Made by a program: the position numbers and the translations under genes
Origin: Myroides indicus
Lineage (GTDB): Bacteria > Bacteroidota > Bacteroidia > Flavobacteriales > Flavobacteriaceae
Assembly: GCF_004364575.1 (NCBI RefSeq)
Contig: NZ_SOAG01000014.1
Span: forward strand, 1 to 64,000
Direction of reading: 5' to 3'
DNA length: 64,000 nucleotides
In this document: piece by piece, positions 1,226 to 26,911 of the stretch
Layout of the letters: each line of letters begins with the position of its first letter
How positions within the stretch are numbered: the stretch's first letter is position 1
Notes under the pieces: generated by a model
What the model was told of the DNA's origin: nothing
The model's input: the letters and a program-made list of their open reading frames with translations, nothing else
Databases searched by the model: none

Positions 1226-1511
1226 GTGAGTATTGTGACTTAAAAAATCAGAAAGAAATTTGTCTTCTTTGTCCTAAAATAAATATTTTTTACTGTTAAG
1301 TATATATCTGTAGATAAAATATATATAGTGGATTTTCTATAAATACTTTAATTTTTTTAACTTTAGTGATGAACATAACAAATCCTACAAAGAAAAGAAT
1401 TAAAAAATTGTTTCATATTCTATAATTACTACTGCTTTTTAAATCTAAAAATTAATTTGTATTATAAATGCTCCGGATAAAATAAGCTTATATTGAGCGA
1501 TTCAATAGTTA
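1226..1511. other. AT-rich intergenic region
   Basis: About 285 bases between the PorP terminator and the decayed cassette terminator on the other strand. It is very AT-rich and holds no reading frame, RNA or repeat that I can recognise. Confidence 0.5.
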
Positions 1512-1554
1512 TTCCCCGGCAAGCAATAAATCATGAAATACTTATCTGGGGGAA
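1512..1554 (-). terminator. Decayed copy of the giant-adhesin terminator
   Basis: On the minus strand, downstream of the pseudogene stop, the sequence repeats the trailer of the two giant genes: a TAGTTTTTTGGTTAGA stretch followed by an imperfect hairpin (TTCCCCCAGATAAG pairing with CTTGCCGGGGAA). The intact copies are at 21150 and 26881. Mismatches in the left arm suggest decay. Confidence 0.6.
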
Positions 1555-1573
1555 AATAATTCTAACCAAAAAA

Positions 1574-2046
1574 CTATTTATTGATCTGCACCCATCCAGT
1601 GTGAATTTTTCCATGTGCGTGAATGACGTAATAATACGTGCCATCCGGCAATTGTTTACCGCTTTTGCTTTGTCCATGCCATTGGGTAGTGTAACCTTCT
1701 CCATACGTGTAAACCTCCGTTCCCCAGCGGTTGTAAATCTTGATACTCTCTACTCCGTGTGGAGTTAAATCAAACGAATCGTTCAGATTGTCTCCGTTTG
1801 GTGATATTCCTCTTGAAATAGGGCAATCCTCATAATCGATAGTGAAGCTACTTTCATCTATACACAATTTATCTTTTGAACTTGCATAAACATAAACCGT
1901 CTGTCCCATAGAAAGCTGTATCCCCACAGATAACTTCTCTTCCTTCTCCATTTGGTTCGGTATAATAGCTATTGAACTCTGATAGCGGCTGAAGTGTATA
2001 CAGCTCGCATTTCAAAGTAGTATCTTCGAATACATCTGCTGCAACA
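1574..2046 (-). pseudogene. Frameshifted 3' remnant of a giant T9SS type B protein
   Basis: The minus strand encodes a clear copy of the C-terminal ~155 residues of the proteins at 14252 and 21477. One frame gives ADVFEDTTLKCELYTLQPLSE and YYTEPNGEGRE, a second gives QTVYVYASS, SSFTIDYEDCPISRGISPNG, IKIYNRWGTEVY and the final HTGWVQINK. The two frames join near 1917-1930, so one small indel breaks the reading. Homology starts abruptly near 2046, only 15 bases after the stop of the upstream regulator, with no start codon or signal peptide. This is a deletion remnant and not a short functional protein; the sorting domain itself (about 1574-1830) is intact. Together with its trailing terminator it forms the third copy of a 3' cassette seen downstream. 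Confidence 0.85.
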
Positions 2047-2061
2047 GAACATAATGTATTA

Positions 2062-3879
2062 TTAAAGATCATTAATGTATTCATCCAAATCTTCATTTCT
2101 CGATAATCGAAATTTTTTCCTCATTTTATAACGGGCCGTTATCAGGCTTGTTTGATTTATATTGAGGAGTTCTGATATTTCGGTGTTTGACATCCACATT
2201 TTAATAAAAGCACATATTCTTATTTCCGTTTTAGATAAATCAGGAAACTTATCTCTTAATGTTTTAAAAAAGTTGGGATGTATTTTTTGAAATATTTCTT
2301 CAAATATCTGCCAATCCTGTTTTGAGTTTCTATTTTGTCGGATAATTTTTAAAATTTGGTTAAATGTTATTTTAGGATTATTTGTTGCGTTTACTATTTG
2401 TTTTTCTATTTCATTAAATAATTTGTTTTTTGATAATAACTGCATACTTAGTAAATTGAGTTCTCTGTTTTTAGATTCTATATCTAATAAATATTGTTTT
2501 TTTTGTAACAGTTCAAATTCATTTTTTGAATTCATTTCAAGCTCATGTTGCTTGTTTTTTAATAGCTCTAATTCCATGTTTGCTTTTAGTTTTTCTAAAA
2601 GCCTCATATTTTCAAGCTTACTTATTTGAAGTGATTTGTTTTTGTTTTTATATAATATCCATATAATTATGACAGATGATAATACAGAAAGTATTATAAT
2701 AATATATGTTTTATTTAAATTTTTCTGTTTTTGGACGTCAATCTTAAAGTCATATTCTTGCTTCTCTAATAAGGTGTTCCATTCTATTGCCTCTACATTT
2801 TGTCTAATATTAGGCCCGTTAATTCGGTCTTTTTCTTCGTAATACTTATTCATGAATAATAAAGCATCTTCAAATCTTTCTTTCTTCTTTAATATGTCTG
2901 ATAATCTCTTTAAAGCATCTAATGCTTCAATAGGAAAAAAATCTTGATTAGATATATCTTCATATGTTCTTTCATAACACTCTATGGCTTTATCTAAATT
3001 TCCTTCAAGTTCATACGCATACCCATAATTAAAAGCAATAGAACTGTTAAACAGCTTATTATTAATAGAGTGATTTAGAACTTGGGTCTTATCTAAAATC
3101 TCTTTAGATTCTCTTATATTCCCTTCACTAGTTGCTATTTTGCTTATTAACAGTAGGATTCTAATAGAACTAACAGTATCTTTTAAATTTTCAAAAGTTT
3201 TTAAGGAAGAATAAAGATTTACTTTTGCTTCTTTATAGTCTTTTAAGGCTACTCTTACCAATCCAAAATTGGCTTTTATTACAGCTTTCCCTCTAGTATT
3301 CTTATTCTTATTAAAAAGGTCATAAGCACTTTGATAATAATTCTCAGATTTATCCATTTCATTAAGACCATAATAAAGTCCTCCAAGTCCATTATAAACT
3401 TCTCCTAATTCATTATAATAATTAGTTTGTTCGAAATAAGATTTAGATTTTAAAAAAAACTCTAAACAATTAGGATAATTATCTCTATATAAAAAATACA
3501 GTCCTTTGATATAATTAATTTTTGCTTTAGTGTATTCACTTTCTGATTCATTAGCATAAATAGTCGCTTTTTCTGCATAAAATAGTATACTATCATGAGT
3601 GTTTTTTCTGATACTTGATAAAATTTTATAGTAATAAAGATATGCTTTATCAGTAGGTTTGTTAATTTTGTTTATAGAACTATATGAGTTATTAATTATT
3701 CTATCTGCATTTTTAAAATCATAATCGACTAAAGAATCCATCTTTTTATATTTAAGATAAACATCATCAAGCACATCCTTATTATAATTGATTTTATTAG
3801 TATATATTTTATAAATACCTGTCGTAATTCCTGTTAGTAGAATAAAAATTAGTATATATTTACTTTTGTTTTTAATCAT
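2062..3879 (-). CDS. Membrane-anchored TPR protein with C-terminal LuxR-like HTH
   Basis: 605 aa. An N-terminal hydrophobic segment (about residues 8-24) is followed by tetratricopeptide-like helical repeats (about 50-370; for example GEVYNGLGGLYYGL and AIECYERTYEDI), a second hydrophobic segment (about 390-412), a long charged coiled coil (415-485) and a C-terminal helix-turn-helix (about 545-595: LSKTEIRICAFIKMWMSNTEIS, then ARYKMRKKF). This gives periplasmic repeats and a cytoplasmic DNA-binding end, the layout of Bacteroidota TPR/LuxR one-component regulators. Codon use is strongly AT-biased relative to the housekeeping genes. The only gene directly downstream is the adhesin remnant, so it may once have regulated a T9SS adhesin; the target and signal are unknown. 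Confidence 0.8.
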   Translation of the reverse strand: MIKNKSKYILIFILLTGITTGIYKIYTNKINYNKDVLDDVYLKYKKMDSLVDYDFKNADRIINNSYSSINKINKPTDKAYLYYYKILSSIRKNTHDSILFYAEKATIYANESESEYTKAKINYIKGLYFLYRDNYPNCLEFFLKSKSYFEQTNYYNELGEVYNGLGGLYYGLNEMDKSENYYQSAYDLFNKNKNTRGKAVIKANFGLVRVALKDYKEAKVNLYSSLKTFENLKDTVSSIRILLLISKIATSEGNIRESKEILDKTQVLNHSINNKLFNSSIAFNYGYAYELEGNLDKAIECYERTYEDISNQDFFPIEALDALKRLSDILKKKERFEDALLFMNKYYEEKDRINGPNIRQNVEAIEWNTLLEKQEYDFKIDVQKQKNLNKTYIIIILSVLSSVIIIWILYKNKNKSLQISKLENMRLLEKLKANMELELLKNKQHELEMNSKNEFELLQKKQYLLDIESKNRELNLLSMQLLSKNKLFNEIEKQIVNATNNPKITFNQILKIIRQNRNSKQDWQIFEEIFQKIHPNFFKTLRDKFPDLSKTEIRICAFIKMWMSNTEISELLNINQTSLITARYKMRKKFRLSRNEDLDEYINDL

Positions 3880-4089
3880 TATACTTATTTATTTGGAATT
3901 ACGTTTATCTATGGTAAGATAAGAAATAATTGCAGTTTGTAATATAAGAAGATATTTTGATTTTTAAAAGATGGGTTATTTGACTAATAGATATAAATCT
4001 ATTAATAAAGTGCTATTTTATGCTTTATGAAAGAAAAATTAACTTGATATCTATCTTACTACATCAATTAAGAGTTGTTTCTACTTTAT

Positions 4090-7437: not shown

Positions 7438-7444
7438 TTTGTGA

Positions 7445-8032
7445 TTATTCTTCGGGGTTTGCTCTTCGGGTTTCATCCATTGCTTCAAGCATTTCTTGTT
7501 CTCCTATTTCTTTTGGAATTTTAGTTTTAGCGAGATTTTCTTCCATCTGCATAATTAAAACCTTAAGATTGGTTTGAACTTCTTTCAGATAAATATCCAC
7601 TTTGTCCATCGGAATAGGATCGAGTTTAATAAACATTTCCAAATTATTGAGAGAAGTTAGCAAAACGGTAACTCTTGCTTTGATATCAGGTTGATTTAAC
7701 TTATTAGGATACGACTGAAAAGTTAAGGATAAAACACTGGAGCTTAATTTTTCTGCTTTTTTCTGGAATGCCCCTAGGGTAGATACCGGTTTTAGCTCTA
7801 TTTCCTGTTTAAACTCCTGCCACATTTTCCAGTTTTCCAGTTCTTGAGCGAGTTCGGGAGAGGTACGGGGAATTTTAAAATTCCAATTTTTTTGAACAAA
7901 AGCGAATATGCTGTCGTTGTATTCTTTTATCTTGATTTGCCTTTCCTGTTCAACTTTAGAATTGTCTTTGCACGAGTAGGTTGTGATAGACAGTGCGATG
8001 AGGCTGAGTATAAAAAACAGATAATTCTTCAT
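7445..8032 (-). CDS. Lipoprotein of unknown function upstream of mfd
   Basis: 195 aa with a lipoprotein signal peptide: basic start, hydrophobic core (residues 5-18) and lipobox TTYSC with Cys at about residue 21. The mature part is charged and mostly helical, without a domain I recognise. It ends 7 bases before the chosen mfd start, so it probably shares a transcript with mfd. I cannot assign a role. The bases upstream of its start are shared with the divergent tdh promoter region. Confidence 0.75.
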   Translation of the reverse strand: MKNYLFFILSLIALSITTYSCKDNSKVEQERQIKIKEYNDSIFAFVQKNWNFKIPRTSPELAQELENWKMWQEFKQEIELKPVSTLGAFQKKAEKLSSSVLSLTFQSYPNKLNQPDIKARVTVLLTSLNNLEMFIKLDPIPMDKVDIYLKEVQTNLKVLIMQMEENLAKTKIPKEIGEQEMLEAMDETRRANPEE

Positions 8033-8108
8033 GGTGTTGAATTAAACTCCAAATTTACAAATGTTATCGGATATTGCTTGGATAATTCTGTTAGTTTGTT
8101 GCATTTCG

Positions 8109-8139
8109 TTGATTAATTGTTGAAGTTAATCTATATTTG
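8109..8139 (+). promoter_or_regulatory. Bacteroidota-type promoter for tdh
   Basis: TTG at 8109-8111, a 20-base spacer, then TATATTTG at 8132-8139, matching the TTG/TAnnTTTG consensus. An in-frame upstream start codon at 8137 falls inside the -7 box, which argues for the ATG at 8161 as the true start. Confidence 0.7.
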
Positions 8140-8160
8140 TATCACTTAAATAGACAAATA

Positions 8161-9117: not shown

Positions 9118-9129
9118 ATGTATAAAGTA

Positions 9130-10183: not shown

Positions 10184-10203
10184 GTAGGCAAAATAAATAT
10201 GAT

Positions 10204-13282: not shown

Positions 13283-13966
13283 TTAGGTTTTTACTATATA
13301 ACCAAGAATCTTGAATAAGTGTTTAATTGATTCTTTAGGAATATCGATTGGTTCATGAATTAATTTTCCATCTGCATATTGTTCAGGATTCGAACTATAT
13401 GCAGTAATGAAGTTTTTATTATTAGATTTTTGTAATTTTTTTATGAGCCTATATTCAGCTGTTTCAACGCAATAATTTTGCCCCCAAACAATAAGATCTT
13501 TATCTCCAATTTCTTTAAGTGTTAAGATACAGCCTGGAGGGAATTCTAGCATATCACTTCCATGATATCGTATTGTGGCTGTGGCTTCTGGAAACCATTT
13601 ATCAGTATCTGTTTCTTCAGGAGAGTAAAGCTCTAAGTTGTCGTTTATTGCCGATTGGGTATTATCAAGACAGGGAGGCAGATGTGTAGCTCTTGTAGTC
13701 TTCTCCTGGTATTTGTAAGGAGAGCTTTCTTTTTTATAATCTTTAAGCATCAAGCCATTACCTGTAAGTAACCATTCGGGATTTAAATCCTTATATTGTG
13801 ATAAAATTTTAGCAATAGCTTCTCCGCCAACCTCGCTATATAGCCCTTTTCCTCTAAAGTTAGATGCTGAAATATCTAAGTTTTCAAAAAATTTCATTTT
13901 CTCAAATCCTTTGTTTTGAATGTATAATAATATTCTTTCTTTAATAGGTGCTAAAATTTTTTTCAT
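13283..13966 (-). CDS. S24/LexA-like phage-type repressor
   Basis: 227 aa. The N-terminal ~75 residues form a helix-turn-helix of the kind seen in Bacteroidota phage repressors (RILLYIQNKGFEKMKFFENL, then DLNPEWLLTGNGLML, a hallmark of these regulators). The C-terminal ~110 residues resemble a LexA/S24 peptidase domain: ATIRYHGSDMLEFPPGCILT with a Ser near the expected nucleophile position, and YRLIKKLQ with a Lys at the expected general-base position. The nucleophile motif is GSDM where GDSM is usual, so self-cleavage competence is uncertain. It is divergent from a small Cro-like gene across 63 bases holding two palindromes. Confidence 0.75.
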   Translation of the reverse strand: MKKILAPIKERILLYIQNKGFEKMKFFENLDISASNFRGKGLYSEVGGEAIAKILSQYKDLNPEWLLTGNGLMLKDYKKESSPYKYQEKTTRATHLPPCLDNTQSAINDNLELYSPEETDTDKWFPEATATIRYHGSDMLEFPPGCILTLKEIGDKDLIVWGQNYCVETAEYRLIKKLQKSNNKNFITAYSSNPEQYADGKLIHEPIDIPKESIKHLFKILGYIVKT

Positions 13967-14251: not shown

Positions 14252-17200
14252 ATGAACAAAAAATTAAACACTTTTACGTTGTGGATTTCTTGTTTACTCT
14301 TATTGAGTGAATCATCGCTACTTTATAGTGCTGAATTTTCAGTATGGCGACAAAGAAGTTATGTGTCTGGATTGTATTTTGTATTATACAATGAAGTATT
14401 TCAGAACAATCCATGTGAAGGGCTGTCTGTGCCTTTTTTAGAAACTTTCAATACAGACTCTCCTACAAGAGGATGTTGGCAAACTGTGGATGTAGATAAT
14501 AGCGGAACTACTTGGTCACTGAATACATCTACTCCGTATGAAGGAACACATGCTATGCGGTATTTTGAAAATAAAAATTTGGGAGGAGGGGGGTTAAATC
14601 CTAGCCCTATAGACATAGGTTCTATACTTCCGGGATTACTTAAGACCGGTGTCAGCACAAGTAAAGTAGGTATAGGAATAGGTGATGATGTTGGTGGTGG
14701 TAATACAGGTGGCGGTAATAATGGTAATGCGGCAAGGAGTGATTTTCTGATTTCTCCAAAGCTTCAGGTAGATTCTACAAAGATATATGAACTCAGATAT
14801 TTTTATAAGACAAATGCTTCTTATAATAATGAATTTGAGGTGTTATTATCAGAAAATGGAGATTCAATAAGTAGCTTTACAGAGACAGTAGTTCCAAGAA
14901 AAACCTATTACAATGGAACTTACAAAGAGGAAATAGCATATATTTCAGGAGTACATAATACGATTCATCTTGCATGGAATGTAGTAAGTACTGATGCCAT
15001 TACGTATGTGTTTATCGATAAGGTCTCTTTAAAAGAGGTGGATTGTCCTTTGCCTTTGGAATTGGAAGTTAAAGATATTCAAGACAATGAAGTAACCATT
15101 CGTTGGGACGGAAAATATAGTACAGAATGGGAATATAGGCTTCAAGAAGATCAAGGAGGAGGGACTCCACTTTCTTCCGGTGGTGTTTTGACAAGTTCAA
15201 ATGAAGTGAAACTATCTAAAGATTTTTCTGGAGATGCTTTGAAAGCAGATACTGAATATGAGCTTTATGTGCGTTCTAAGTGTGCAAGTGGGAAGTTTAG
15301 TGATTGGGTGCTTCTAACAATTAAGACAAGTTGTAAATCAGTAGGTTTACCGTTTACAGAGAGTTTTGAAACCAACTCTCTTTCGAAAGATTGTTGGGTG
15401 ATTCTGGATATAAATGACGATTCTGCAAATACTACGGCAACCACAAATCAATGGCATTTTATAAGTGGAACTGCTAATGCTTATGAAGGCAGTTACAGTA
15501 TGCGTTTTTACGGAGCGGGTACTGAAAAAATCCATGACGATTGGTTGATTTCTCCTTCATTCGAAGTAGATAGTACTAAAATTTATCAAGTATCTTACTA
15601 CTATAAAACGCATTGGACATCAGGTAGTAATGAGTTCGAAGTGTTGCTGTCTAATAAAGGTGTTAACCCGGATAGTTTCACCACTGTTTTATTGCCCGAG
15701 CAAACTTATTCAGGATTGGGTGAGTATCGCAAACAATCTTTGTATATTCAAAATACTCACGGAAAAGTAAATGTGGCTTGGCATGTAATTGCAAAAGGGG
15801 CTGCTTATGTGTTTATAGATATGGTTGCTATTAAAGAGGTGGACTGTATAGGACCTGAAGAAGAGGTTGAGATAAGTGGACTAGGCACAAAAGAGGCTAC
15901 TTTTAGTTGGGAGGATAATCTGAATTCACAGTGGGAATATTTTGTACAAGAGGCAATAGGCGGAGGAGCTCCGGTGGGGAGCGGTGTACTAGCTAATGGA
16001 AAAAGTGCGAAAGTAACTCGGACAAGTGGAGCCGGAGGTGTAAATTTGGAGCCAGATACTGACTATGTGTTTTATGTGCGTTCGAATTGTGGTCCTGGAA
16101 AGAATAGTAGCTGGGTCGGTCCAATCTACTTTAGAACACTTTGTGATAGTCAACCATTGCCTTTTTGGGAAGGGTTTAATACAGGTTCACAAACAACAGA
16201 TTGTTGGATGATTATTGACAATAACAAAGATTCTACAAATCCTAGTGGTAATGATATTTGGAATCTTAAGACAACTCGTTATGAAGGTACTCATGCGATG
16301 GCTTTTGTAAGTACACATACAGATGAGTCAAAGTTTCCTCATGATGATTGGTTAATTTCTCCTTCGTTTAAGTTTGATGCAACTAAATATTATAAAGTGA
16401 CCTATCGCTATAGAACTAATACTAATTATCCTACTGACTTTAGAGTGGTTCTCTCCGATAAAGGTTTGGGTGTAAATAGCTTTGACAAGGTTTTGGATGT
16501 CAAGAAAAAGATAGCCAGTAACGATTGGGAGGAAGCAACGTTAATTATTGGAAAGACAGGAGGAGAAATATACATAGCCTGGCATGTCGACGCTTCTGCA
16601 AGAGCTTATCTGTATTTAGATGACATATCCATAGAAGAATTAGACACTTGCCCTCAGCCGGTGTTTTTGGGGATCAAAGAGGAAAAAGAAGATCGTGTGA
16701 CTATTTTTTGGACCGATGATTATAGTACTGATTGGGAATATGTAGTTCAGGAACCAAGAGGAGGGATGCCTACGGGCTCGGGTACGATTTCAACTACTAA
16801 GGAAATAGTGATATCTCAGGACAAAGAAGGAAGTGCTTTAGAACCAAATACGGAATATGAGTTTTATGTACGAACGGATTGTGCGAATGGAAAATATAGT
16901 GATTGGTCAGGTCCCTTTGTTTTTAGAACGGCTTGTCAAGTGTTTACTACGCCATTTTGGGAAGGATTTAATGCGAATTCAAACAATATTGAATGCTGGA
17001 CAATTATAGATAATAATGAAGACACTTCCGCATCAACAAACGCTTGGAAGCAGCTTACAACACAAATTTATGAAGGTACGCACGCAATGGCTTTTCAAGG
17101 AACACAATCAAATGCCTCTAAATTGCCTCATGATGATTGGTTGGTGTCTCCTAAGGTTAAATTTGAAGCTGGTAAGGTATATCGCTTAAAATATCATTAT

Positions 17201-20200
17201 AGGACACATACGGGTACTACAGACTTGTACAAATATGAATTCGAAGTTTTAGCTTCTAATTCAGGTACAGATGTAAAGAATTTTACCAAGGTAGTAGTAC
17301 CCAAGCAAGAATATAGTGCGGGTGCAGCATGGAAAGAAGAATATGTATTTATTTCGGGGATAAGCGGAGAGGTGAACATAGCGTGGCATGTCACAGGAGA
17401 TTTACGCTATTCATATTTATTTATAGATAATATTTTTATTGAGGAAGTGAATAATTGTCCGGAGCCCTTAAATTTAGATGCTAAGGATTTGGAAACGAAT
17501 AAAGCAACACTGGCTTGGACAGACAATATGGGAGGAACTAATTATGAATACTATGTGCAAAAAGAAGGATTGGGATTGCCTTTTGGAAAAGGGATGACAG
17601 CTTCTGTTAAAGAGATAATTGTAACGCAGGATGCAAACGGAAATTCTTTAGATCATAATACAGACTATGAGTTTTATGTGCGTACGGATTGTGGAGATGG
17701 AACCTATAGTATATGGAATGGACCTTACTATTTTACTACTTTGTGTGATGAATTTAAAACTCCTTTCTGGGAAGGATTTAATTCGGATTCAAAAACAGCG
17801 AGATGTTGGACTATATTGGATGAGGATGAAGATGACCGCTCATGGAGCGTAACAATTAGGAATGGGCAGTTTTATGAAGGAGATGGAGGAGCTATGATAA
17901 CCACAGCAGGAGCTACAGGAGGAGGATTAATAGGTACTCCGATAGATATAATAGGTGGAGGTGGAGGTAGTGATGTTGCTGCTTCATCAGACGATTGGTT
18001 GATCTCTCCGAACCTACAAGTAGATAGTGCAATGTATGTGTTGAAATTTCATTATCGAACTGTTTCAAGTAATGAAGAGAACAAAGTACTCTTTAGTTTA
18101 AAAGCCTCTCAGAAAGGTGTAGATATAGCTGATTTTGATCGAACACTGATAGGAAAAAAGGAGTATGACAACTCGCTTTGGAAAGAAGAAATAGTGTATT
18201 TTAACGCTTCAAAAGGAATAATAAACATAGCATGGCATTGTGAAAGTGATGTTAAGGGACAAAGTGCTAGTTTGTATATAGATAATTTCTCATTAAAGAA
18301 GATGGGAGCTTGTGCAGAGCCTTATTCTGTCATCGTGGTCGATCAGACAGATACTACTTTAGATATAGAATGGGAGGAAGACGGAGACAATACAGAGTGG
18401 GAAGTGATTGTAGTAGAGTATGAGGAGGATGAAACAGCTACTCCTATTCAGACCATAATTGTTACAGGAAATCCGGAAGTTAAGATTACTGGTTTGGATT
18501 CTGGAAAAGTATATAAGTTATATGTTCGCTCTAAATGTAAAGGCGGCAACTCTTATAGTAATTGGAGTACAGCAGTGATTGGGGCTACTAATCTGGGAGC
18601 GAATGATAACTGTAGTGGTGCATTGCCTATTCCTGTGAATTCGACTTTGGAATGCGTAGAAACCATTAAAGGAAGTTTGCAAGGAGCTACGCAGTCCTCA
18701 GCTCCTACCCCGAGTTGTAGTACTAACTTAAAAAACGATTTGTGGTTTGAGTTTACAGCTACCGCTACAGCTCATATGTTTAGCATTGATCAAGTCATGG
18801 CTTTGCCTTCTACAAGTCTTGCTCCGATATTATATGTAGCACTTTATGCACGAGATTGTAATTCAATTTCCGCAACTCCTGTAGTTTGTTTCGCAGCGTC
18901 AACGGGTGGTGTTTCCAGAATGTTAACAGATCTGATTCCAGGTAATACCTATTATGTCAGAATAGGAAATTATGAACGGAGAGATGATAAAACCAATGAA
19001 TTAGTCCAAGGAGAACAACCCGACTTTGTTTTTACCTTGTGTATAACCACATCTGAATATACACCAATAGAAGTCAGTCCTAGCGGGCAGCGATATTCTG
19101 TAGAAGAGCTGGTGAAAGATGTGTTGATTCGGTCCAATTGTGATTTGGTGTCTAATGTACGTTATCAGGTGGGTAACGGAAGTCCTGCTACGAAATCAGT
19201 GAATACGCTGGGATATTTCAATAAAGGTAAAGGTAAGTCGATTTTTCCGTTTGAGGAAGGTATTGTGTTGTCTACAAGTCAGGTGCAGTATGTTCCAGGA
19301 CCGTACACTACAAGTAATAAAGGGACTAACCCACATCGTTGGACAGGAGATAAAGATATTAATGATGCTATTGCTGATGCTGGTGGAGGTCCTAGATCGG
19401 ATAAACGAGTTACGCAGTTGGAATTTGACTTTATTCCAATATTAGATTCGATCCACTTTGATTATCTTTTTGCTTCGAATAGTTATATGAACGGTTGTAC
19501 ATATACATGTCAAAATGGAGCGTTGTTTGCCGCTTGGTTAATCGATACTACTACTGGTGAGGGGCAAAATTTGGCGAAGATTAAAGGAACTAATACCCCT
19601 ATAGCTTTGCATACAATTTGGGATAGTGAGAAAATATTGGGGACAAACTGTTCAAGTAACCCGGAACTGTTTTGGAATAATTATTCATCCGGAAGCTCAA
19701 ATCCTATAGATGCGCCCTTTAACTTTTCAGGATCTACTATTGGAATGAGCTCAGAAACAGTACATGTAGTTCCCGGACGTCAGTATCATATCAAATTAGC
19801 AGTGATGGACTTTTGCCCTACAGCTTCACATTCTTCAGCAGTGTTTTTTAATGCAGGTAGTTTTAATTTAGGGAATTTAGACCTTGGAGCTGACTTGCTT
19901 GTAGAAACTAATAATGCGTTATGTGGTGGGGAGTGTGCGACTATTACCTCTGGATTAAGCACAGAAGGGATAGCTATAAAATGGTTTAAAGATGGAGTTC
20001 TTATTACTGGCGAAGAAGATTCTGAACTAGAGGTGTGTGAAAGTGGTTTGTATAGAGTAGAAGGATACCAAGCTGAAATTGATTGTACTGTAATTGGAGA
20101 AATTAAAGTTGAAATATATCCTTCTATATCCGAAGTGGTGAATGCGCCTAAATCTATAGAAGCATGCAGGTATTCTTTATCTGGTCAAGTTCTTGATTTA

Positions 20201-21121
20201 TCGGTTGTAGAAGAGGAAATGTTTTTAGGGATTGAAAATACAGAGGGCTATACAACGAAGTATTACCTGACGGAAAAAGGAGCTGTAGAAGCTTTAGCTG
20301 AGGATGAAATGGATTTAGAATATCAGATAGATGGAGAGGAGATAAGAACGGTCTATCTTCGAGTAGAAGACCTGCATACAGGATGTTATGAAATATTCTC
20401 TTTTTCGATTAATGTGAGTAGAGGAGAAGTTCCGGCTCAGCCTGAAAACGCTTCAGTCTGCGCAGAATATGTATTTCCACAAGTCAATGGTGATCAGTAT
20501 TACTATACCGAACCGGGGGGTCAGGGTAAAGAATACAAGGTTGGAGATCTTTTAGCAGAATCGGGTGAACATACGATTTATCTGTTGCAGGCAAACAACG
20601 ATGAAGGATGTTATGAAGAAACCGCTTATCAGGTGAAAATTACAGCTGCGGTAACGGCAGATATTTTTGAAAGCGAAACGCTGAGTTGCGAATATTATGA
20701 ACTAAAGCCTCTGTCTGAATACAGTCAGTATTTTACCGGACCGGAAGGACAGGGAATAGAATTGTACGAAGGCATGCAGGTTCTTCAAGGACAAACCATT
20801 TACGTTTACGCAAGTTCAGACGATAAAGAGTGTACGGATGAGAGTAGTTTTACGATAGATTACGAAGACTGCCCTATTCCAAGAGGAATTTCACCAAACG
20901 GCGACAATCTGAATGATGTCTTTGATTTAACTCCTCACGGAGTAGAAGATATTAAGATTTACAACCGTTGGGGTACAGAGGTTTATTCGCATGGAGCAGG
21001 CTATACTACCCAGTGGCATGGGCAGGGTAAAAATGGCAAACAGTTACCTGACGGAACGTATTACTATGTAATTATCGCTCATGGTAAAACCCGAACAGGT
21101 TGGGTGCAGATTAATAAGTAA
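14252..21121 (+). CDS. Giant secreted adhesin-like protein: anchor J/FN3 repeats, anchor L, T9SS type B tail
   Basis: 2289 aa with an N-terminal signal segment (about residues 5-27). Five choice-of-anchor J (cleaved-adhesin/MAM-like) modules start near residues 59, 366, 635, 899 and 1169, marked by PFWEGFN, CW-x-(I/V)-D, YEGTHAM, DDWL(I/V)SP and AWHV. Each is followed by a fibronectin III-like module ending in YELYVRS/YEFYVRT and C-x-x-GKYSDW. Then come a Cys-containing domain (1451-1600, NDNCSGALPIPV), a choice-of-anchor L domain (about 1604-1875), Ig-like segments and a type B sorting domain (about 2204-2289, GISPNGDNLNDVF, NRWGTEVYSHG, WVQINK). Predicted to be exported by T9SS and held at or released from the cell surface; ligand unknown. 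J1 and J5 carry glycine-rich insertions. A close paralogue follows at 21477. Confidence 0.85.
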   Translation: MNKKLNTFTLWISCLLLLSESSLLYSAEFSVWRQRSYVSGLYFVLYNEVFQNNPCEGLSVPFLETFNTDSPTRGCWQTVDVDNSGTTWSLNTSTPYEGTHAMRYFENKNLGGGGLNPSPIDIGSILPGLLKTGVSTSKVGIGIGDDVGGGNTGGGNNGNAARSDFLISPKLQVDSTKIYELRYFYKTNASYNNEFEVLLSENGDSISSFTETVVPRKTYYNGTYKEEIAYISGVHNTIHLAWNVVSTDAITYVFIDKVSLKEVDCPLPLELEVKDIQDNEVTIRWDGKYSTEWEYRLQEDQGGGTPLSSGGVLTSSNEVKLSKDFSGDALKADTEYELYVRSKCASGKFSDWVLLTIKTSCKSVGLPFTESFETNSLSKDCWVILDINDDSANTTATTNQWHFISGTANAYEGSYSMRFYGAGTEKIHDDWLISPSFEVDSTKIYQVSYYYKTHWTSGSNEFEVLLSNKGVNPDSFTTVLLPEQTYSGLGEYRKQSLYIQNTHGKVNVAWHVIAKGAAYVFIDMVAIKEVDCIGPEEEVEISGLGTKEATFSWEDNLNSQWEYFVQEAIGGGAPVGSGVLANGKSAKVTRTSGAGGVNLEPDTDYVFYVRSNCGPGKNSSWVGPIYFRTLCDSQPLPFWEGFNTGSQTTDCWMIIDNNKDSTNPSGNDIWNLKTTRYEGTHAMAFVSTHTDESKFPHDDWLISPSFKFDATKYYKVTYRYRTNTNYPTDFRVVLSDKGLGVNSFDKVLDVKKKIASNDWEEATLIIGKTGGEIYIAWHVDASARAYLYLDDISIEELDTCPQPVFLGIKEEKEDRVTIFWTDDYSTDWEYVVQEPRGGMPTGSGTISTTKEIVISQDKEGSALEPNTEYEFYVRTDCANGKYSDWSGPFVFRTACQVFTTPFWEGFNANSNNIECWTIIDNNEDTSASTNAWKQLTTQIYEGTHAMAFQGTQSNASKLPHDDWLVSPKVKFEAGKVYRLKYHYRTHTGTTDLYKYEFEVLASNSGTDVKNFTKVVVPKQEYSAGAAWKEEYVFISGISGEVNIAWHVTGDLRYSYLFIDNIFIEEVNNCPEPLNLDAKDLETNKATLAWTDNMGGTNYEYYVQKEGLGLPFGKGMTASVKEIIVTQDANGNSLDHNTDYEFYVRTDCGDGTYSIWNGPYYFTTLCDEFKTPFWEGFNSDSKTARCWTILDEDEDDRSWSVTIRNGQFYEGDGGAMITTAGATGGGLIGTPIDIIGGGGGSDVAASSDDWLISPNLQVDSAMYVLKFHYRTVSSNEENKVLFSLKASQKGVDIADFDRTLIGKKEYDNSLWKEEIVYFNASKGIINIAWHCESDVKGQSASLYIDNFSLKKMGACAEPYSVIVVDQTDTTLDIEWEEDGDNTEWEVIVVEYEEDETATPIQTIIVTGNPEVKITGLDSGKVYKLYVRSKCKGGNSYSNWSTAVIGATNLGANDNCSGALPIPVNSTLECVETIKGSLQGATQSSAPTPSCSTNLKNDLWFEFTATATAHMFSIDQVMALPSTSLAPILYVALYARDCNSISATPVVCFAASTGGVSRMLTDLIPGNTYYVRIGNYERRDDKTNELVQGEQPDFVFTLCITTSEYTPIEVSPSGQRYSVEELVKDVLIRSNCDLVSNVRYQVGNGSPATKSVNTLGYFNKGKGKSIFPFEEGIVLSTSQVQYVPGPYTTSNKGTNPHRWTGDKDINDAIADAGGGPRSDKRVTQLEFDFIPILDSIHFDYLFASNSYMNGCTYTCQNGALFAAWLIDTTTGEGQNLAKIKGTNTPIALHTIWDSEKILGTNCSSNPELFWNNYSSGSSNPIDAPFNFSGSTIGMSSETVHVVPGRQYHIKLAVMDFCPTASHSSAVFFNAGSFNLGNLDLGADLLVETNNALCGGECATITSGLSTEGIAIKWFKDGVLITGEEDSELEVCESGLYRVEGYQAEIDCTVIGEIKVEIYPSISEVVNAPKSIEACRYSLSGQVLDLSVVEEEMFLGIENTEGYTTKYYLTEKGAVEALAEDEMDLEYQIDGEEIRTVYLRVEDLHTGCYEIFSFSINVSRGEVPAQPENASVCAEYVFPQVNGDQYYYTEPGGQGKEYKVGDLLAESGEHTIYLLQANNDEGCYEETAYQVKITAAVTADIFESETLSCEYYELKPLSEYSQYFTGPEGQGIELYEGMQVLQGQTIYVYASSDDKECTDESSFTIDYEDCPIPRGISPNGDNLNDVFDLTPHGVEDIKIYNRWGTEVYSHGAGYTTQWHGQGKNGKQLPDGTYYYVIIAHGKTRTGWVQINK

Positions 21122-21149
21122 CTTAGTAGTTTTTTGGTTAGATTTGGTT

Positions 21150-21188
21150 ATCCCCGGACAAGTATTTTGTAATTTTCTTGCCGGGGAT
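21150..21188 (+). terminator. Terminator of giant gene 1
   Basis: ATCCCCGG-(A)-CAAG pairs with CTTGCCGGGGAT (21177-21188) with one bulged base. It is preceded by a trailer identical for about 40 bases to that behind the second giant gene. Confidence 0.75.
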
Positions 21189-21476
21189 TAACTTATAAAT
21201 TATTATATGAGGCACACGCATGAGGGAGTTTCATCGGTTAGCTGTATATTTAGTAAAAATAATTTATAACCCTTTACATAAGAAACGCCTCTTATGTATG
21301 AGCTATTTCATAACGAGATAAATTAATATAAAAAGGAGCTGTCTTTTTAGATAGCTCCTTTTTAATGTTTGATTTTTTAGATAATTAATGATATACTGAG
21401 GCTTTTGGTGTTGAAGAAGATTAATATTTGATTCACAAATTCAAAATTAATGCTATATTGTGAGCAATAAAGATTT
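21189..21476. other. Intergenic region between the two giant genes
   Basis: It holds a 9-bp hairpin (TACATAAGA/TCTTATGTA, 21275-21298) and a terminator-like hairpin at 21330-21363. No reading frame of note and no clear TAnnTTTG promoter for the second gene, although AATATTTG at 21423-21430 is a near match. Confidence 0.4.
21330..21363 (+). terminator. Second terminator-like hairpin between the giant genes
   Basis: AAAAAGGAGCT-GTCT pairs with AGAT-AGCTCCTTTTT around a short T loop. It would stop residual read-through from gene 1, or terminate a short transcript starting after 21190. Confidence 0.65.
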
Positions 21477-24400
21477 ATGAAAAGTTTATTTAAAATTACT
21501 AATATGAAAATAAAATTATTCTATAGAATTTTAATCGTATTTTTTATGATAATTACTTTGAGTTTTTCAAAGAAGTTGACATATGAAAATATATATTTAA
21601 ATGAGGAGGGAGAAACTGTTAGTATAAATGCCCTTGATTGTAATGAGCCTAAAGAAATAAAAATATTAAATGTTTTACCAAATAGTGCTGATTTTAGCTG
21701 GGAAGATGAGGAGAATACTGAATGGGAATATTATGTACAAGATGCTTGGGAAGTAGCACCTGTTGGGAGTGGTGTGCTTTCAAAGTCTAAGAGTGTAACA
21801 GTGACTCGTACAAGTGGTCTTGGGGGAGTGAATTTTCAGCCCGGTACAGAATATGACTTTTATGTGCGAGCTTCTTGTGGAGGGGGAAAGTTTAGCGCTT
21901 GGGTTGGACCTTTACGTTTTAAAACCCCTTGTAATGCTATAGCTTTACCTTTTTGGGAAGGGTTTAATTCAGATTCTACGACTATAGACTGCTGGGAGAT
22001 TGTAGATAATAATAAAGATTCAACTTCTTCGACAGATAGTAATATATGGAAAATAACTACTACAAGTTATGAGGGAACACATGCCATGTATTTTATAGGG
22101 AATCAATCTGATAATTCGAAGAGACCTCATGATGATTGGTTGATTTCACCAACATTTACTTTAGATGCTACCAAAGTGTATAGACTAAAATATTATTATA
22201 GGTTAGATTCTAATTCTTTAACCTCATATGAGTATGAATATGAGGTATTATTATCTAATTCTGGCATAAGTGTAGATGATTTCACTACAATAGTAGTGCC
22301 AAGCAAAAAATACAATCCAGATACCGTATGGACAGAACAAACAGCATTTATTACAGGTATAAATGGAAACATTAATTTAGCGTGGCATGTAACATCATCC
22401 ACTCAGTATACTTATATTTACATTGATGCTGTTTCTTTGGAAGAGATAGAATGCCCTGAACCGATTAATTTAGGAAGTAAATATGAGGAAAAGTCTACAT
22501 CAACAATCTTTTGGGAAGATGAATTTGGTTCGGATTGGGAATATGTGGTTCAAGAATCTGGTAAAGGAGCGCCTGCTGTTTCAGGAACACTTACGACAAA
22601 TAAGGAAGTAATTGTAACGAAAGATATAAAAGGTAAAAATCTGGAGGAGAATACAGAATACGAACTTTATGTTCGTACAGATTGTGGAGCTGGAAAATAT
22701 AGTGAATGGTCTGGTCCTTATGTTTTTAGAACGGGATGTGGAGTTTTTGGAACTCCTTTTTGGGAGGGCTTTAATGTGGGGCATGATTCTAAGTACTGTT
22801 GGACAATTATTGATAGTAATGGAGACTCAACTTCCAAAACAGCGGATATTTGGCATTTCGATACGACGAGCTATGAAGGAACGCATTCAGCACGTTTTAA
22901 TGGAACTTCTTCTGCGGATGTTCCTCATGATGATTGGCTTATTTCTCCAACAATTGAGTTTGAAAAAGGAAAAACTTATCGTTTGAAGTATCATTATAGA
23001 ACATCCTCTATAACTACGTATGAGTACGAATTCGAAGTTTTGTTATCCGATTCAGGAGTGGATGAAGATAGCTTTAAAACTACTATTATTCCTAAGAAGA
23101 ATTATGAGCCAGAAAGTGTTTGGATAGAACAAACAACTTTTATTGAAGGGGTTGAGGGTCATATTAACTTGGCGTGGCATGTAACTTCAAATACACAGTA
23201 TACAACGATATATATAGACAATATCTTTGTAGAAGAAGTAGAGAATTGTCCGGAACCTTATAACTTGGGGGTAAAAGATATAGAAACTGATAGTGTCACC
23301 ATATATTGGACTGATGATATGGGTGGAAGTAACTATGAATATTACATACAAGGGACAGGTGGCTCCGAACCATTAGGAAATGGTATATCTACTACTCAAA
23401 AAGAGGTAGTGGCTACTAAGGATGGTAAAGGAACGGTTTTGAATCATAATACAAATTATGAGTTATATGTACGTACGGATTGTGGTGACGGTACATTTAG
23501 TTCTTGGAGCGGCCCTGTTAAATTTACTACGCCTTGTGGAGTGTTTGAAACAACATTTTTAGAAAATTTTAATCTAGATTCTCCTACTATGCGCTGTTGG
23601 ACTGAAGATGATTTGATGGTCTCCAAAGAAATAATAAACACGTATAAAAATGTGTTCTTTTCATATGATAATTATGAAGGTGATGACAGCCCATTATTAA
23701 CTAATTTTATTGATAACTTTCTTTTTGCTCAGTCAAGAATAGAATCAAATCTAATATCTCCTCAATTGAAATTAGAAGGAGGTACTTATATGTTAAAATA
23801 CAACTACATTTCTCCTGTTTCAGTAAAAGCTTTCGGAGTACCATTGAATACTATGATGGAGTTAAAATTGTCAGGTACAGATAATACAGGTAAAGCAATT
23901 GAAGAAAATATTGTAACAAGGAAATTATATTCAGCTGATTCATGGGAAGAAGAAATACTATTTATTACCGGAGTCTCGGGAGAGGTAAATCTGCAATGGC
24001 GGGTAACTTCTGATGGGACATATTATGCGATGGGAATAGATAATCTTTCTTTGAAAGAAGTGAAAACATGTCCGGAACCCTATTTTATTGAACTTACAAA
24101 CGCTAGTTCTTCTAGTGTTACTGTTCAATGGGAACAGTTTGGAGACATCAAGGAATGGGAAGTAATTATTGTAAATTATGGGGAGGATGAAACAGCCTCG
24201 CCAATTAAAACTCTAAATGTAACAGGAACACCGCAAACAACTATATCCGGATTAGATGCTGGAAAAGCTTATACAATTTATGTTCGTGCTAAATGCAAAG
24301 ATAATGTCTCGGCTAGTGAGTGGTCATCGTCAATAAATGCGGCTACAGAAGTGAGTGCTAATAACAATTGTACTGGAGCGTTGAATATTCCTGTGAATTT

Positions 24401-26852
24401 GGGACCAGATTGTGAAGAGTTTCTTTCTATATCTACATTAGGATCTTTTATGTCTTCTTCTGTTCTTCCTGCGTGTTATTCAGATGATGTAGAGGCAGAT
24501 GTCTGGCTTGAATTCACTGCAAATTCTACGGCTCACCTATTAACTTTTAAAAATATTAAAGAACAATCTGAAGGCTCTCTTCCTAGTTTTGATATTGCTG
24601 TTTATGGAGTGAATTGTTCAGCCATTAGTACAAGTACTCCGCTTTTCTGCGATTCAGTTTACCCGTATTCATCAACGGAAAGAATGTTAACAGGATTAAT
24701 TCCGGGACAAAAATATTTTGTTCGCATTGCATTTCCTAAAGGAAATTATTTGCTTACTGTCTGTCTGACCCAATCTGAGTGGGGATATATGGAAGTGAGC
24801 GCCAGTGGCGAAAAATATTCGGTAGATGAATTGATTAAAGATGTTTTAATTCAGTCTAATTGTAATTTGGTGTCTAATGTACGTTATCAAGTCGGAGATG
24901 GAAGTCCAGCTACAGCATCGGTAAATACTTTGGGGTATTTCAAAAAAGGAAATACAGAGTTTCCGTTTACAGATGGAATTGTACTATCTACAAGTGAAGT
25001 AGATTATGTACCTGGTCCATATACACCTAGTGGTAGTTTTAAAGGCGATAATCCTCATCGTTGGACAGGAGATAAAGATATCAATGACGCAATTAAAAAT
25101 GCGGGAGGTGGACCAAGAGAAGATAAAAGAGTGACTCAAGTAGAATTCGATTTTATACCAATTAAAGATTCTTTAGATTTTGAATACTTGTTTGTTAGTA
25201 ATAGCTATATTGAAGGTTGTACCTATACCTGTGAGAATGGAGCTTTATTTGCTGCATGGTTGATAGATGAAACTACAGGAGAGGGAGTAAATTTGGCAAA
25301 GATTAAAGGTACAAATACTCCGATTTCTTTATATACAATTTGGGACTCTAATAAAATAATAGGAACAAGTTGTTCTAGTTATCCAGAGTTGTTTTGGAAA
25401 AACTATTCTTCAGGAATCTCTCATCCCCTGGATGCGCCATTTAATTTCGCAGGAGCAACCAAAGCTATGAGCTCAGAAACTGTTTATGTGGTACCGGGAC
25501 GCAAATATCATATTAAATTAGCAGTGATGGATTTTTGCCCAACTTCATCTCATTCTTCTGCGGTATTTTTCAACGCAGGAAGTTTTGATTTGGGAACGTT
25601 GGATTTAGGAGAAGATTTGTTGATAGAAACTAATACAGCTTTATGTGAAGATGAAAGTGTTCTGATCCGATCCGGAGTTACTATTTCCGAAGAATTGAAT
25701 ACAAAGATAGAATGGAAAAAAGATGGAGTTATAATTCCAGGTGCAACCGAAGTGGATTTAGAGGTAAGAGAAAGTGGCGTATATACTGTTCAGGTTGATT
25801 TTGTTGATATAAATTGTCAAAGAGAAGACAGTATTACAATAGAAATGTATCCTCCTATTTCCGAAAGCGTAAATCAGGCAAAAGATATTATAGTTTGCAG
25901 ACAAGCTTTGGAAGAAGTTTCTGTTAATCTGATCTCTGTAGAAACGGAAATGTTTAAAGATGTTGAAAGAAGTGATTATAATACAGAATACTATAAGACA
26001 ATCGAAGAAGCTGAAGCATCGGAGAATGCAATATCTAATGTAGAAAATTATGCATTGGGCAAAGAACCGCAAGCTCAAACACTATATATCCGTGTTGAGA
26101 GTATGATAACGGGATGCCATGAGATATTTGAGTTGCATATTCAGCCGGAACAAGGTGCTATTCCGGATAAACCATCTGATGTTTTAGTTTGTGCAGAATA
26201 TGTATTCCCTCAAGTAAATGGAACACAATATTATTATATGCAGCCGGGAGGAGAAGGAAAAGCTTATAAAACGGGAGACGTTTTAGCTGAACCGGGAGAA
26301 CATACCATTTATCTGTTACAGATAAACAATGAGGAAGGCTGTTATGAAGAAATTGCTTATAAAGTAAAAATAACAGCACCTGTAGTGGCAGATGTATTTG
26401 AAGATAAAACACTAAGCTGTGAGTACTACGAGCTAAAACCACTTTCTGAGTACAATCATTATTTTACAGAACCGGGAGGAAATGGCGACGAACTATACCC
26501 AGGCAGACAGATTCTCGAAAAACAGACCATTTATGTGTATGCCAGTTCAGAAGGCGGTTTATGTACGGATGAAAGCAGTTTTACTATCGATTATGAAGAT
26601 TGTCCGATACCAAGGGGAATCTCTCCCAATAACGATGGTTTAAATGATGTTTTTGATCTGACACCTCACGGCGTGGAAAACATAAAAATTTATAATCGAT
26701 GGGGTACAGAAGTTTATTCGCATGGAGCAGGCTATACTACCCAATGGCACGGACAAAATAAAAACGGCAAACAACTTCCGGACGGAACGTATTACTACGT
26801 AATTCAGGCGCATGGCAAAACGCGTACCGGATGGGTACAGATCAATAAGTAA
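21477..26852 (+). CDS. Giant secreted adhesin-like protein 2, paralogue of the preceding gene
   Basis: 1791 aa. The signal/anchor segment is about residues 14-32; an internal ATG at 21504 gives a tidier signal peptide and is an alternative start. The mature protein opens directly with a fibronectin III-like module (about 56-150), then J modules near 157, 427 and 692 alternate with FN3 modules, the Cys-containing NNNCTGALNIPV domain (962), choice-of-anchor L (about 1104-1375), Ig-like segments and the type B tail (about 1708-1791). Compared with gene 1 it lacks the first J module and one later J/FN3 unit. The anchor L region and the last ~150 residues are the most similar between the two. Role probably surface adhesion or substrate binding; T9SS-dependent export is inferred from the tail. 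Confidence 0.85.
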   Translation: MKSLFKITNMKIKLFYRILIVFFMIITLSFSKKLTYENIYLNEEGETVSINALDCNEPKEIKILNVLPNSADFSWEDEENTEWEYYVQDAWEVAPVGSGVLSKSKSVTVTRTSGLGGVNFQPGTEYDFYVRASCGGGKFSAWVGPLRFKTPCNAIALPFWEGFNSDSTTIDCWEIVDNNKDSTSSTDSNIWKITTTSYEGTHAMYFIGNQSDNSKRPHDDWLISPTFTLDATKVYRLKYYYRLDSNSLTSYEYEYEVLLSNSGISVDDFTTIVVPSKKYNPDTVWTEQTAFITGINGNINLAWHVTSSTQYTYIYIDAVSLEEIECPEPINLGSKYEEKSTSTIFWEDEFGSDWEYVVQESGKGAPAVSGTLTTNKEVIVTKDIKGKNLEENTEYELYVRTDCGAGKYSEWSGPYVFRTGCGVFGTPFWEGFNVGHDSKYCWTIIDSNGDSTSKTADIWHFDTTSYEGTHSARFNGTSSADVPHDDWLISPTIEFEKGKTYRLKYHYRTSSITTYEYEFEVLLSDSGVDEDSFKTTIIPKKNYEPESVWIEQTTFIEGVEGHINLAWHVTSNTQYTTIYIDNIFVEEVENCPEPYNLGVKDIETDSVTIYWTDDMGGSNYEYYIQGTGGSEPLGNGISTTQKEVVATKDGKGTVLNHNTNYELYVRTDCGDGTFSSWSGPVKFTTPCGVFETTFLENFNLDSPTMRCWTEDDLMVSKEIINTYKNVFFSYDNYEGDDSPLLTNFIDNFLFAQSRIESNLISPQLKLEGGTYMLKYNYISPVSVKAFGVPLNTMMELKLSGTDNTGKAIEENIVTRKLYSADSWEEEILFITGVSGEVNLQWRVTSDGTYYAMGIDNLSLKEVKTCPEPYFIELTNASSSSVTVQWEQFGDIKEWEVIIVNYGEDETASPIKTLNVTGTPQTTISGLDAGKAYTIYVRAKCKDNVSASEWSSSINAATEVSANNNCTGALNIPVNLGPDCEEFLSISTLGSFMSSSVLPACYSDDVEADVWLEFTANSTAHLLTFKNIKEQSEGSLPSFDIAVYGVNCSAISTSTPLFCDSVYPYSSTERMLTGLIPGQKYFVRIAFPKGNYLLTVCLTQSEWGYMEVSASGEKYSVDELIKDVLIQSNCNLVSNVRYQVGDGSPATASVNTLGYFKKGNTEFPFTDGIVLSTSEVDYVPGPYTPSGSFKGDNPHRWTGDKDINDAIKNAGGGPREDKRVTQVEFDFIPIKDSLDFEYLFVSNSYIEGCTYTCENGALFAAWLIDETTGEGVNLAKIKGTNTPISLYTIWDSNKIIGTSCSSYPELFWKNYSSGISHPLDAPFNFAGATKAMSSETVYVVPGRKYHIKLAVMDFCPTSSHSSAVFFNAGSFDLGTLDLGEDLLIETNTALCEDESVLIRSGVTISEELNTKIEWKKDGVIIPGATEVDLEVRESGVYTVQVDFVDINCQREDSITIEMYPPISESVNQAKDIIVCRQALEEVSVNLISVETEMFKDVERSDYNTEYYKTIEEAEASENAISNVENYALGKEPQAQTLYIRVESMITGCHEIFELHIQPEQGAIPDKPSDVLVCAEYVFPQVNGTQYYYMQPGGEGKAYKTGDVLAEPGEHTIYLLQINNEEGCYEEIAYKVKITAPVVADVFEDKTLSCEYYELKPLSEYNHYFTEPGGNGDELYPGRQILEKQTIYVYASSEGGLCTDESSFTIDYEDCPIPRGISPNNDGLNDVFDLTPHGVENIKIYNRWGTEVYSHGAGYTTQWHGQNKNGKQLPDGTYYYVIQAHGKTRTGWVQINK

Positions 26853-26880
26853 ATTAGTAGTTTTTTGGTTAGATTTGGTT

Positions 26881-26911
26881 ATCCCCGGACAGAGTACGCT
26901 CTGTCGGGGAT
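26881..26911 (+). terminator. Terminator of giant gene 2
   Basis: ATCCCCGGACAGAG (26881-26894) pairs with CTCTGTCGGGGAT (26899-26911), one bulged G, loop TACG. Same position and outer stem as the terminator of gene 1, but a different inner stem and loop. Confidence 0.8.

Follow-up and report, generated by a model that had tools for sequence, protein, structure and literature searches.

The first 64,000 nucleotides of contig NZ_SOAG01000014.1 (C14) of Myroides indicus, called the window here, were analyzed together with the rest of the draft genome (3.06 Mb in 79 contigs). The window harbours two giant genes, W20k and W26k, which by their C-terminal domain encode type B sorting-domain proteins of the type IX secretion system (T9SS); export and anchoring of both proteins are predicted. 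Both open reading frames (ORFs) encode choice-of-anchor J, fn3, choice-of-anchor L and type B sorting domains. The analysis makes it probable that the 3' ends of these genes are an exchange module, shared among ~22 T9SS type B proteins, and that the noncoding trailer behind them is a separate selected piece. The features carrying this proposal are:

14,252–21,121, plus strand: W20k, giant surface-protein gene (2289 aa) with anchor-J repeats, fn3, anchor-L and type B sorting tail
20,876–21,112, plus strand: type B sorting domain of W20k (TIGR04131 / CHU_C)
21,477–26,852, plus strand: W26k, giant surface-protein gene (1791 aa) with W20k-like architecture and fewer anchor-J repeats
25,830–26,881, plus strand: exchanged 3' block of W26k (1052 bp; 96.3 % identity with C12_5k on another contig), running from −1022 to +29 relative to the stop codon
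26,607–26,843, plus strand: type B sorting domain of W26k

A family of giant surface-protein genes

The two window tails score 71.2 and 76.5 bits with CHU_C (cut-off 27). TIGR04131 scores 37.5 and 37.9 bits (cut-off 35) in W26k and in a minus-strand remnant near the window start; in W20k it scores 31.4 bits in the whole-protein scan, which is below the cut-off, and 39.0 bits in the genome search. Genome-wide there are 27 TIGR04131 matches, made up of 20 family tails and 7 other type B tails.

It had originally been predicted, from the window sequence, that three copies share their coding 3' ends as well as a trailer. This likeness was confirmed. The sequence TAGTTTTTTGGTTAGA occurs exactly at 1561–1576 (minus strand), 21,127–21,142 (plus strand) and 26,858–26,873 (plus strand). 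Over their final 300 bp the two giant ORFs share 80 % identity, and the complementarity between them and the minus-strand copy is 74–78 %. The three window copies are real, but the number for the genome is larger: a DNA search with the 3' end as query located 22 sites, namely 15 intact genes (1776–2549 aa), 6 genes truncated at contig ends and the one remnant in the window.

Probable exchange of 3' blocks within the genome

Within the tract shared by W26k and C12_5k the proportion of synonymous differences (pS) is 0.00–0.28, compared to 0.46–0.79 before the tract, and the body of W26k upstream of it shows no such likeness to C12_5k. The tract is not fully identical, which argues against a simple assembly chimera. 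Approximately unbiased (AU) tests on tree segments revealed conflicting histories. The body segment rejects a grouping of W26k with C12_5k (p 1.7e-11) and its tree places W26k beside W20k (support 85/89), whereas grouping W26k with W20k is rejected by the immunoglobulin-like (Ig) segment (9e-4) and by the tail segment (3e-4). C4_44k behaves similarly: its Ig segment groups with C4_12k and C14_75k (support 100/99), a grouping rejected by the tail (6e-4), which is W26k/C12_5k-like with a grouping support of only 84/85.

A block map was made from similarity matrices over the 105 pairs of the 15 intact genes. The matrices correlate at rho 0.79–0.83 among three body windows and at 0.59–0.78 for neighbouring windows of the 3' block, while all 16 combinations of a body window with a 3'-block window gave rho −0.13 to 0.32, none of them under 77 of 1000. 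Mantel tests were likewise weak or negative (body and tail 778/2000, body and Ig 516/2000, Ig and tail 124/2000). The block break lies ~340–390 codons upstream of the stop codon, and a linkage scan has its minimum (0.04) at alignment column 520, near window positions 25,690–25,750 in W26k. A second low (0.06) precedes the anchor-L domain, at column ~180 in the alignment of the last 800 aa, and the anchor-L part may be an exchange block of its own. With all sites included, a test of the pairwise homoplasy index (PHI) type, in our own implementation, gave 0/2000 permutations for the last 800 aa and also for the last 330 codons. Sharp low-pS tracts combined with tree conflict point to concerted evolution at the sequence level, in few pairs only.

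The original prediction had sought the exchange of whole 3' modules in W20k and W26k. Such exchange is indicated across the genome, by the 96.3 % tract, the tree conflict, the linkage break and the genome-specific tails described below, but not for this pair. Synonymous divergence between W20k and W26k has reached saturation in each of the 20 windows, of 45 codons, that were plotted (pS 0.53–0.97), and the tail data reject grouping the two (p = 0.0003), so that recent conversion between them was discarded. The 31-base coding patch (VYSHGAGYTTQ) that had been singled out does exist as an identical run, of 32 bases by recount and the longest for this pair, but it failed as evidence of exchange. 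It is also exact in a third copy, C45_0.5k, and when synonymous codons were shuffled among copies, 199 of 200 trials produced runs of at least 31 bases at some place in the family; a run as long as the W20k/W26k patch arose for that pair in 43 of 1000 shuffles. The earlier idea is right in kind and wrong in evidence and scale.

Tails and bodies in related species

Relatives by sequence include Myroides guanonis, Flavobacterium sp. HSC-61S13 and the Flavobacteriaceae metagenome-assembled genome (MAG) UBA1682; one genome per species was compared. Over the last 100 aa, the M. indicus genes are on average 87.1 % identical to each other (105 pairs, minimum 77.0 %) and 67.7 % identical to those of M. 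guanonis (195 pairs, maximum 77.0 %); the M. guanonis tails share 73.1 % among themselves (78 pairs). In the tail tree the 15 M. indicus genes form one clade (support 75) and five M. guanonis tails another (81). For the anchor-L part a single clade was rejected, both for the M. indicus genes (p 2.5e-17) and for four M. guanonis genes (1e-27).

Of 13 M. guanonis loci, 10 were long enough for a reciprocal-best search against the 15 intact genes, which yielded three body pairs, C4_12k/L168, C38_7k/L161 and C14_83k/L164, with bodies 75, 67 and 59 % identical. Their tails are 68, 68 and 71 % identical and rank first (tied), ninth and third of the 13 M. guanonis tails. For comparison, the Mfd proteins of the two genomes share 79 % identity; Mfd was preferred over an alternative benchmark protein that is only 54 % identical to M. 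guanonis. Along C4_12k/L106 (L106 is L168) the first seven windows of 60 columns show 25–70 % identity and the next sixteen 58–96 %, 15 of them at least 75 %; then follow one window of 71 % and the last six with 43–66 %, the last 100 aa being 68 % identical. Flanking homology was found upstream in one of the three reciprocal-best pairs and downstream in none. Between HSC-61S13 and UBA1682, which are close mutual relatives, HSC_L123/UBA_L117 shows a drop of likeness in the 3' block and the control pair HSC_L107/UBA_L125 does not. Judged from these alignments, paralogous tails are more alike within the M. indicus genome than in comparison to M. guanonis, which does not hold for HSC-61S13 and UBA1682.

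A conserved trailer behind the tails

Downstream of the two window genes the following elements are located:

21,119–21,198, plus strand: trailer of W20k (model R1), with leader TTTTTTGGTTAGATTTGGTTA and CCCCGG hairpin (stem ~21,146–21,193), no U-tract
21,329–21,364, plus strand: ordinary terminator-like hairpin with U-tract, ~210 nt past the W20k stop codon and downstream of the trailer
26,850–26,921, plus strand: trailer of W26k, hairpin ~26,877–26,916, stem tip different but compensated

The leader TTTTTTGGTTAGATTTGGTTA, or a close form, is present in 18 of the 22 copies and the hairpin in 16 of those. C12_5k and C38_24k carry the leader plus a different, ordinary terminator; both leader and CCCCGG hairpin are absent from C40_10k, C40_1.6k, C4_4k and C35_0k. 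The near-identity reported earlier for the trailers of the two intact window copies was reproduced (98 % in the match at 26,854–26,896), and it exceeds chance: the 16-mer TAGTTTTTTGGTTAGA occurs exactly 11 times in the genome and its reversed control not at all. Searching the genome for more copies, as had been proposed, indeed recovered them, the clear ones all at family tails. Among 22 trailer matches, 16 at E ≤ 1e-4 and a weak one at C14:84,021 are family tails, the other five being weak (E ≥ 0.18). A covariance model, for which 150 of 3941 first-look candidates were scored, gave 18 hits in the genome, again all family tails; 16 are the model's own sequences and the remaining two are the leader-only copies (E 0.03 and 0.2). 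With covariance hits and strong matches confined to family tails, a genome-wide repeat or an element of unrelated genes was rejected. No hits with the model were obtained in 120 other genomes of the genus, a sample of a larger group searched with stricter filters. A known Rfam family was also rejected, since the window gives tRNA only and a relaxed search of 21,000–21,480 gives 8 hits that are all below the gathering score. An integron attC-like site, judged by eye only, was dropped.

The trailer is more conserved than the adjoining coding sequence. Among 14 of the 16 hairpin copies (two with too few codons were omitted) its median distance is 0.148 versus a tail pS of 0.71 (91 pairs), and the two are only slightly coupled (Spearman 0.17, p 0.10). 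Distances increase from leader (0.05) to stem arms (0.17–0.18) to loop (0.31), an order that argues for selection on the element. Stem pairing is kept in 93.7 % of cells, with 6 double changes, a number reached by 5 of 500 shuffles. The likeness of the trailers had been taken as a sign of conversion; constraint explains it better than conversion alone.

The CCCCGG hairpin had also been labelled a terminator. A Rho-independent terminator is recognized by a GC hairpin followed by a U-tract, and by its sequence the hairpin does not qualify: the stem is followed by ATTAACTT-like sequence, not a T-run, in 15 of 16 copies, the T-run being limited to C4_44k. Our own U-tract scan overlooks a weak terminator in C40_1.6k. 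Within 130 nt past the stop codon it detected ordinary terminators in none of the 16 hairpin copies versus 5 of the 6 others (Fisher 2.3e-4), and in 9 of 13 M. guanonis loci. From 130 to 450 nt past the stop codon six hairpin copies have terminator candidates, most clearly W20k and C32_0k. We read the trailer as a constrained 3' or intercistronic RNA element, a separate selected piece.

A possible connection with porP

Two genes in the window encode proteins of the PorP/SprF family:

158–1162, plus strand: PorP/SprF family protein behind a type B tail truncated at the window start, of another type than the family-linked PorP (25–33 % identical to it)
32,779–33,708, plus strand: candidate shared partner, a PorP/SprF protein 88–89 % identical to the PorP pieces that directly follow two family genes

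In C45_0.5k and C14_83k a PorP frame starts ~148–181 nt past the stop codon, after the hairpin. C-terminal remnants of PorP follow the trailer hairpin in C14_75k (C14:75,355–75,501), C30_34k, C34_1.8k and, weakly, C2_0k (E 4e-4); for four members the neighbour check covered only 275–635 bp of downstream sequence. These remnants suggest that porP was lost from former adhesin-porP pairs. In C14_75k and C30_34k the porP DNA match (81–87 %, ~200 nt) starts within the right arm of the hairpin. This arm, ...ATTAACTTACCG, corresponds to the porP codons for GGITYR, where the DNA of the C51 piece reads GGCGGAATAACTTACCG; C32_0k, which has no longer remnant, shows the likeness at the same site and in the same register (E 0.04). 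A match that begins inside the right arm suggests that the arm arose from a deletion leaving the last codons of porP. The hairpin is present in all three genes with a reciprocal-best M. guanonis body (C4_12k, C38_7k and C14_83k) and in 0 of 13 M. guanonis tails. A scar of single origin must have passed from gene to gene after the two lineages separated, or else have disappeared from all M. guanonis copies.

PorP matches number 12 in the genome, and 8 of them exceed the cut-off (6 full length and 2 contig-end pieces). With ~22 tails and 2 porP starts, it may be hypothesized why the tails might be STANDARDISED: if adhesins have their tail in common, a small set of partners could suffice for many of them.

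The remnant locus and neighbouring genes

The minus-strand copy is accompanied by a gene for a tetratricopeptide repeat (TPR) protein:

1502–1584, minus strand: trailer element of the remnant, stem partly decayed
1577–2060, minus strand: remnant W1k, a family gene reduced to its last ~160 codons, which tblastn finds in two frames
2062–3879, minus strand: TPR protein of the type preceding 7 of the 15 intact family genes

The predicted remnant is indeed a family 3' end, although its boundaries had to be refined; the frame-broken codons lie directly downstream of the stop codon of gene 2062–3879. Because the TPR gene is of the kind that precedes family genes, W1k is probably a family locus that lost nearly the whole adhesin gene. 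TPR-type proteins (up to ~600 aa) are encoded directly before C45_0.5k, C40_10k, C40_1.6k, C38_7k, C34_1.8k, C14_75k and C4_12k, their kinship being judged by length and the common C-terminal motif RIRKK...LDE. A Pfam scan of two of these proteins detected TPR repeats in both. The one from C40 also has a weak C-terminal GerE/LuxR-type match, below the Pfam cut-off, and the window protein has no GerE/LuxR match. The TPR-type proteins are possibly dedicated regulators. The upstream regions of the 15 genes share stretches of 66–77 % identity of up to 442 bp. Much of this sharing is due to the TPR gene or to an adjacent family gene, and the rest consists of short pieces.

Small divergent genes, helix-turn-helix-like by eye, adjoin family genes in the window (13,283–13,966, minus strand) and at C51_0.4k, C14_75k and C4_4k; the window gene has no Pfam or NCBIfam match. 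Next to the adhesin pair, at 27,271–29,121 on the minus strand, lies a gene for a protein resembling the ornithine lipid synthase OlsF (417 bits; cut-off 620). Positions 1–147, at the window start, hold the truncated tail of a further type B protein; a TIGR04131 match with the same score and coordinates opens contigs C44 and C55, and this end is probably present repeatedly in the genome. Contigs C12, C38, C29, C61, C40, C34, C30, C13 and C2 end inside family genes, with exact common ends of 95 bases and once of 175, which indicates that several members carry long identical stretches.

Alternative explanations

Several results weigh against exchange of 3' ends and against the origin proposed for the trailer. 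Complete genes represent 15 of the 22 members only, and the clades submitted to the AU tests were chosen after the profiles had been inspected. In the block map the first body window is weakly tied to the other body windows (0.27–0.37), and the correlation between the sorting domain and the beginning of the 3' block is low as well (0.19). The PHI-type test on all sites is weak for the last 210 codons (116/2000) and the sorting domain (75/2000), and on synonymous third positions alone it gave no signal (469, 1072, 562 and 266 of 2000). The support of 75 for the M. indicus tail clade is low. For HSC-61S13 and UBA1682 one tail clade per genome is rejected (9e-5 and 3e-7), and several of their tails pair across both genomes like orthologues. 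Covariation in the stem is modest, as its 3 pairs with a double change were reached by 34 of 500 shuffles. The link between trailer and porP (6 of 16 hairpin copies versus 0 of 6 others) is based on too few copies to be secure, and in copies that have no longer remnant the porP likeness of the right arm reaches E 0.04 at best. Finally, with a median pS of 0.60–0.77 over all windows, most pairs within the genome are saturated in the tail too, where the proportion of nonsynonymous differences (pN) drops to 0.06–0.08. This combination indicates that strong purifying selection also acts and that exchange is slow relative to synonymous change; the likeness of the tails is largely due to purifying selection, recent exchange being visible in few pairs.

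These pS and pN values would also fit the absence of any exchange, the tails of an old duplication being kept alike by a common export machine and the trailer being an inherited terminator. The pair W20k/W26k, without sign of recent exchange, and the orthologue-like tails of HSC-61S13 and UBA1682 agree with this explanation. We nevertheless regard it as distinctly unlikely, given the low-pS tracts in some pairs, the conflicting trees, the block map and the presence of genome-specific tails on related bodies; W26k/C12_5k and C4_44k, at least, already contradict it. Another way of dispensing with DNA exchange is parallel co-adaptation, in which the tails of each species converge residue by residue on their own PorP and translocon. 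It would account for tails that are genome-specific at the protein level despite saturated synonymous sites, and type B proteins are described as binding PorP-like partners (PMC9143113). Neither the noncoding trailer in 18 of 22 copies versus 0 of 13 in M. guanonis nor a DNA tract of 96 % identity can be accounted for in this manner, and co-adaptation alone seems very improbable. Least credible of all is a mosaic created by short-read assembly in repeats. Although the genome is in 79 contigs, several of which end in family genes with common 95-base ends, the tracts among those listed (at least 88 % identity and at least 70 bp) are 88–97 % alike and not identical, overlaps of neighbouring flanks aside, and other assemblies, too, show likeness falling off in the 3' block (HSC_L123/UBA_L117, and M. 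indicus compared with M. guanonis).

As to the trailer, its hairpin could be the intrinsic terminator of this lineage, working without a U-tract. This is possible, if doubtful: the hairpin occupies the place of ordinary terminators, from which it is mutually exclusive within 130 nt, and C4_44k does have a T-run behind the stem. The sequence following the other 15 stems argues against it, and so do the porP starts located beyond the hairpin in two copies and the ordinary terminator ~210 nt downstream of W20k.

Comparison with known systems

Type B proteins with PorP/SprF partners include SprB-SprF of F. johnsoniae and PG1035-PorP of P. gingivalis (PMC9143113). The M. indicus genes resemble these in C-terminal domain family (TIGR04131, PF13585), in encoding giant surface proteins and in the PorP-type genes behind some of them. 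They differ in that an intact porP start follows only 2 of 22 genes and in tails homogenised within the genome.

The gingipains and HagA of P. gingivalis have type A tails and are covalently anchored. They are, like the present family, modular T9SS-secreted adhesins that recombine and carry cleaved-adhesin domains. Rearrangement of adhesin domains and allelic exchange have been described for them, and the variation reported concerns internal adhesin and catalytic domains between strains (PMC5266723). In M. indicus, on the other hand, the unit exchanged appears to be a 3' sorting block among ~22 paralogues.

The antigen families Campylobacter sap, Neisseria pilin and Mycoplasma vlhA recombine through a conserved end. 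A conserved block with a variable body and ectopic recombination are common features; in contrast to those families, neither a single expression site nor an array of silent cassettes was noticed in M. indicus, and 7 of the 15 intact members have their own upstream TPR gene. For the hairpin, the mRNA-stabilising intercistronic hairpins of malE-malF and puf offer a parallel. Transcript 3' ends made by Rho are trimmed by exonucleases, according to one study (PMC7815308). With these hairpins and trimmed ends the trailer shares a stable hairpin past the stop codon without U-tract, but unlike in malE-malF and puf one sequence family stands behind 16–18 paralogues and is found nowhere else in the genome.

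Proposed course of events and significance

We propose that ~22 bodies are old and divergent, and that the last ~340–390 codons, comprising the Ig-like region and the sorting tail, would have been copied between dispersed members, together with the first 30–80 nt of the trailer. The most likely route would be ectopic homologous recombination of the RecA type or gene conversion, with the conserved 3' block as homology. A likely benefit would be that diverging bodies stay fitted to the cell's own export and anchoring partner of the PorP/SprF type. The hairpin may have been formed by deletion of porP behind one member and then have spread with the tail; as an intercistronic or 3'-end mRNA structure it may block 3' exonucleases or tune readthrough into porP. 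The minus-strand copy would be a dead remnant. A bolder version, which we consider unlikely, holds that the sorting tail is a standard exchangeable plug: recombination would hold ~22 adhesin bodies to one genome-specific tail served by few PorP partners in trans, and the shared 3' RNA element, a scar of porP deletion, would let one factor control the stability of the repertoire.

The surface-protein family thus probably evolves in concert, and it stands out because the secretion tail is the block exchanged and because a family-specific 3' RNA element goes with it. No description of such tail exchange was found in the accessible portions of the literature on gene conversion in type IX secretion, on concerted evolution or gene conversion of flavobacterial adhesins, or on choice-of-anchor proteins with type B sorting. 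Related bodies with different tails provide material for assigning residues of the tail to individual PorP partners, a point in type IX secretion that we believe to be open. The analysis also points out a family-specific 3' RNA element without U-tract in a phylum in which, as far as we know, RNA 3' ends have been little mapped. For the family itself, it implies that a large surface repertoire can diversify its bodies while the secretion tail evolves in concert.

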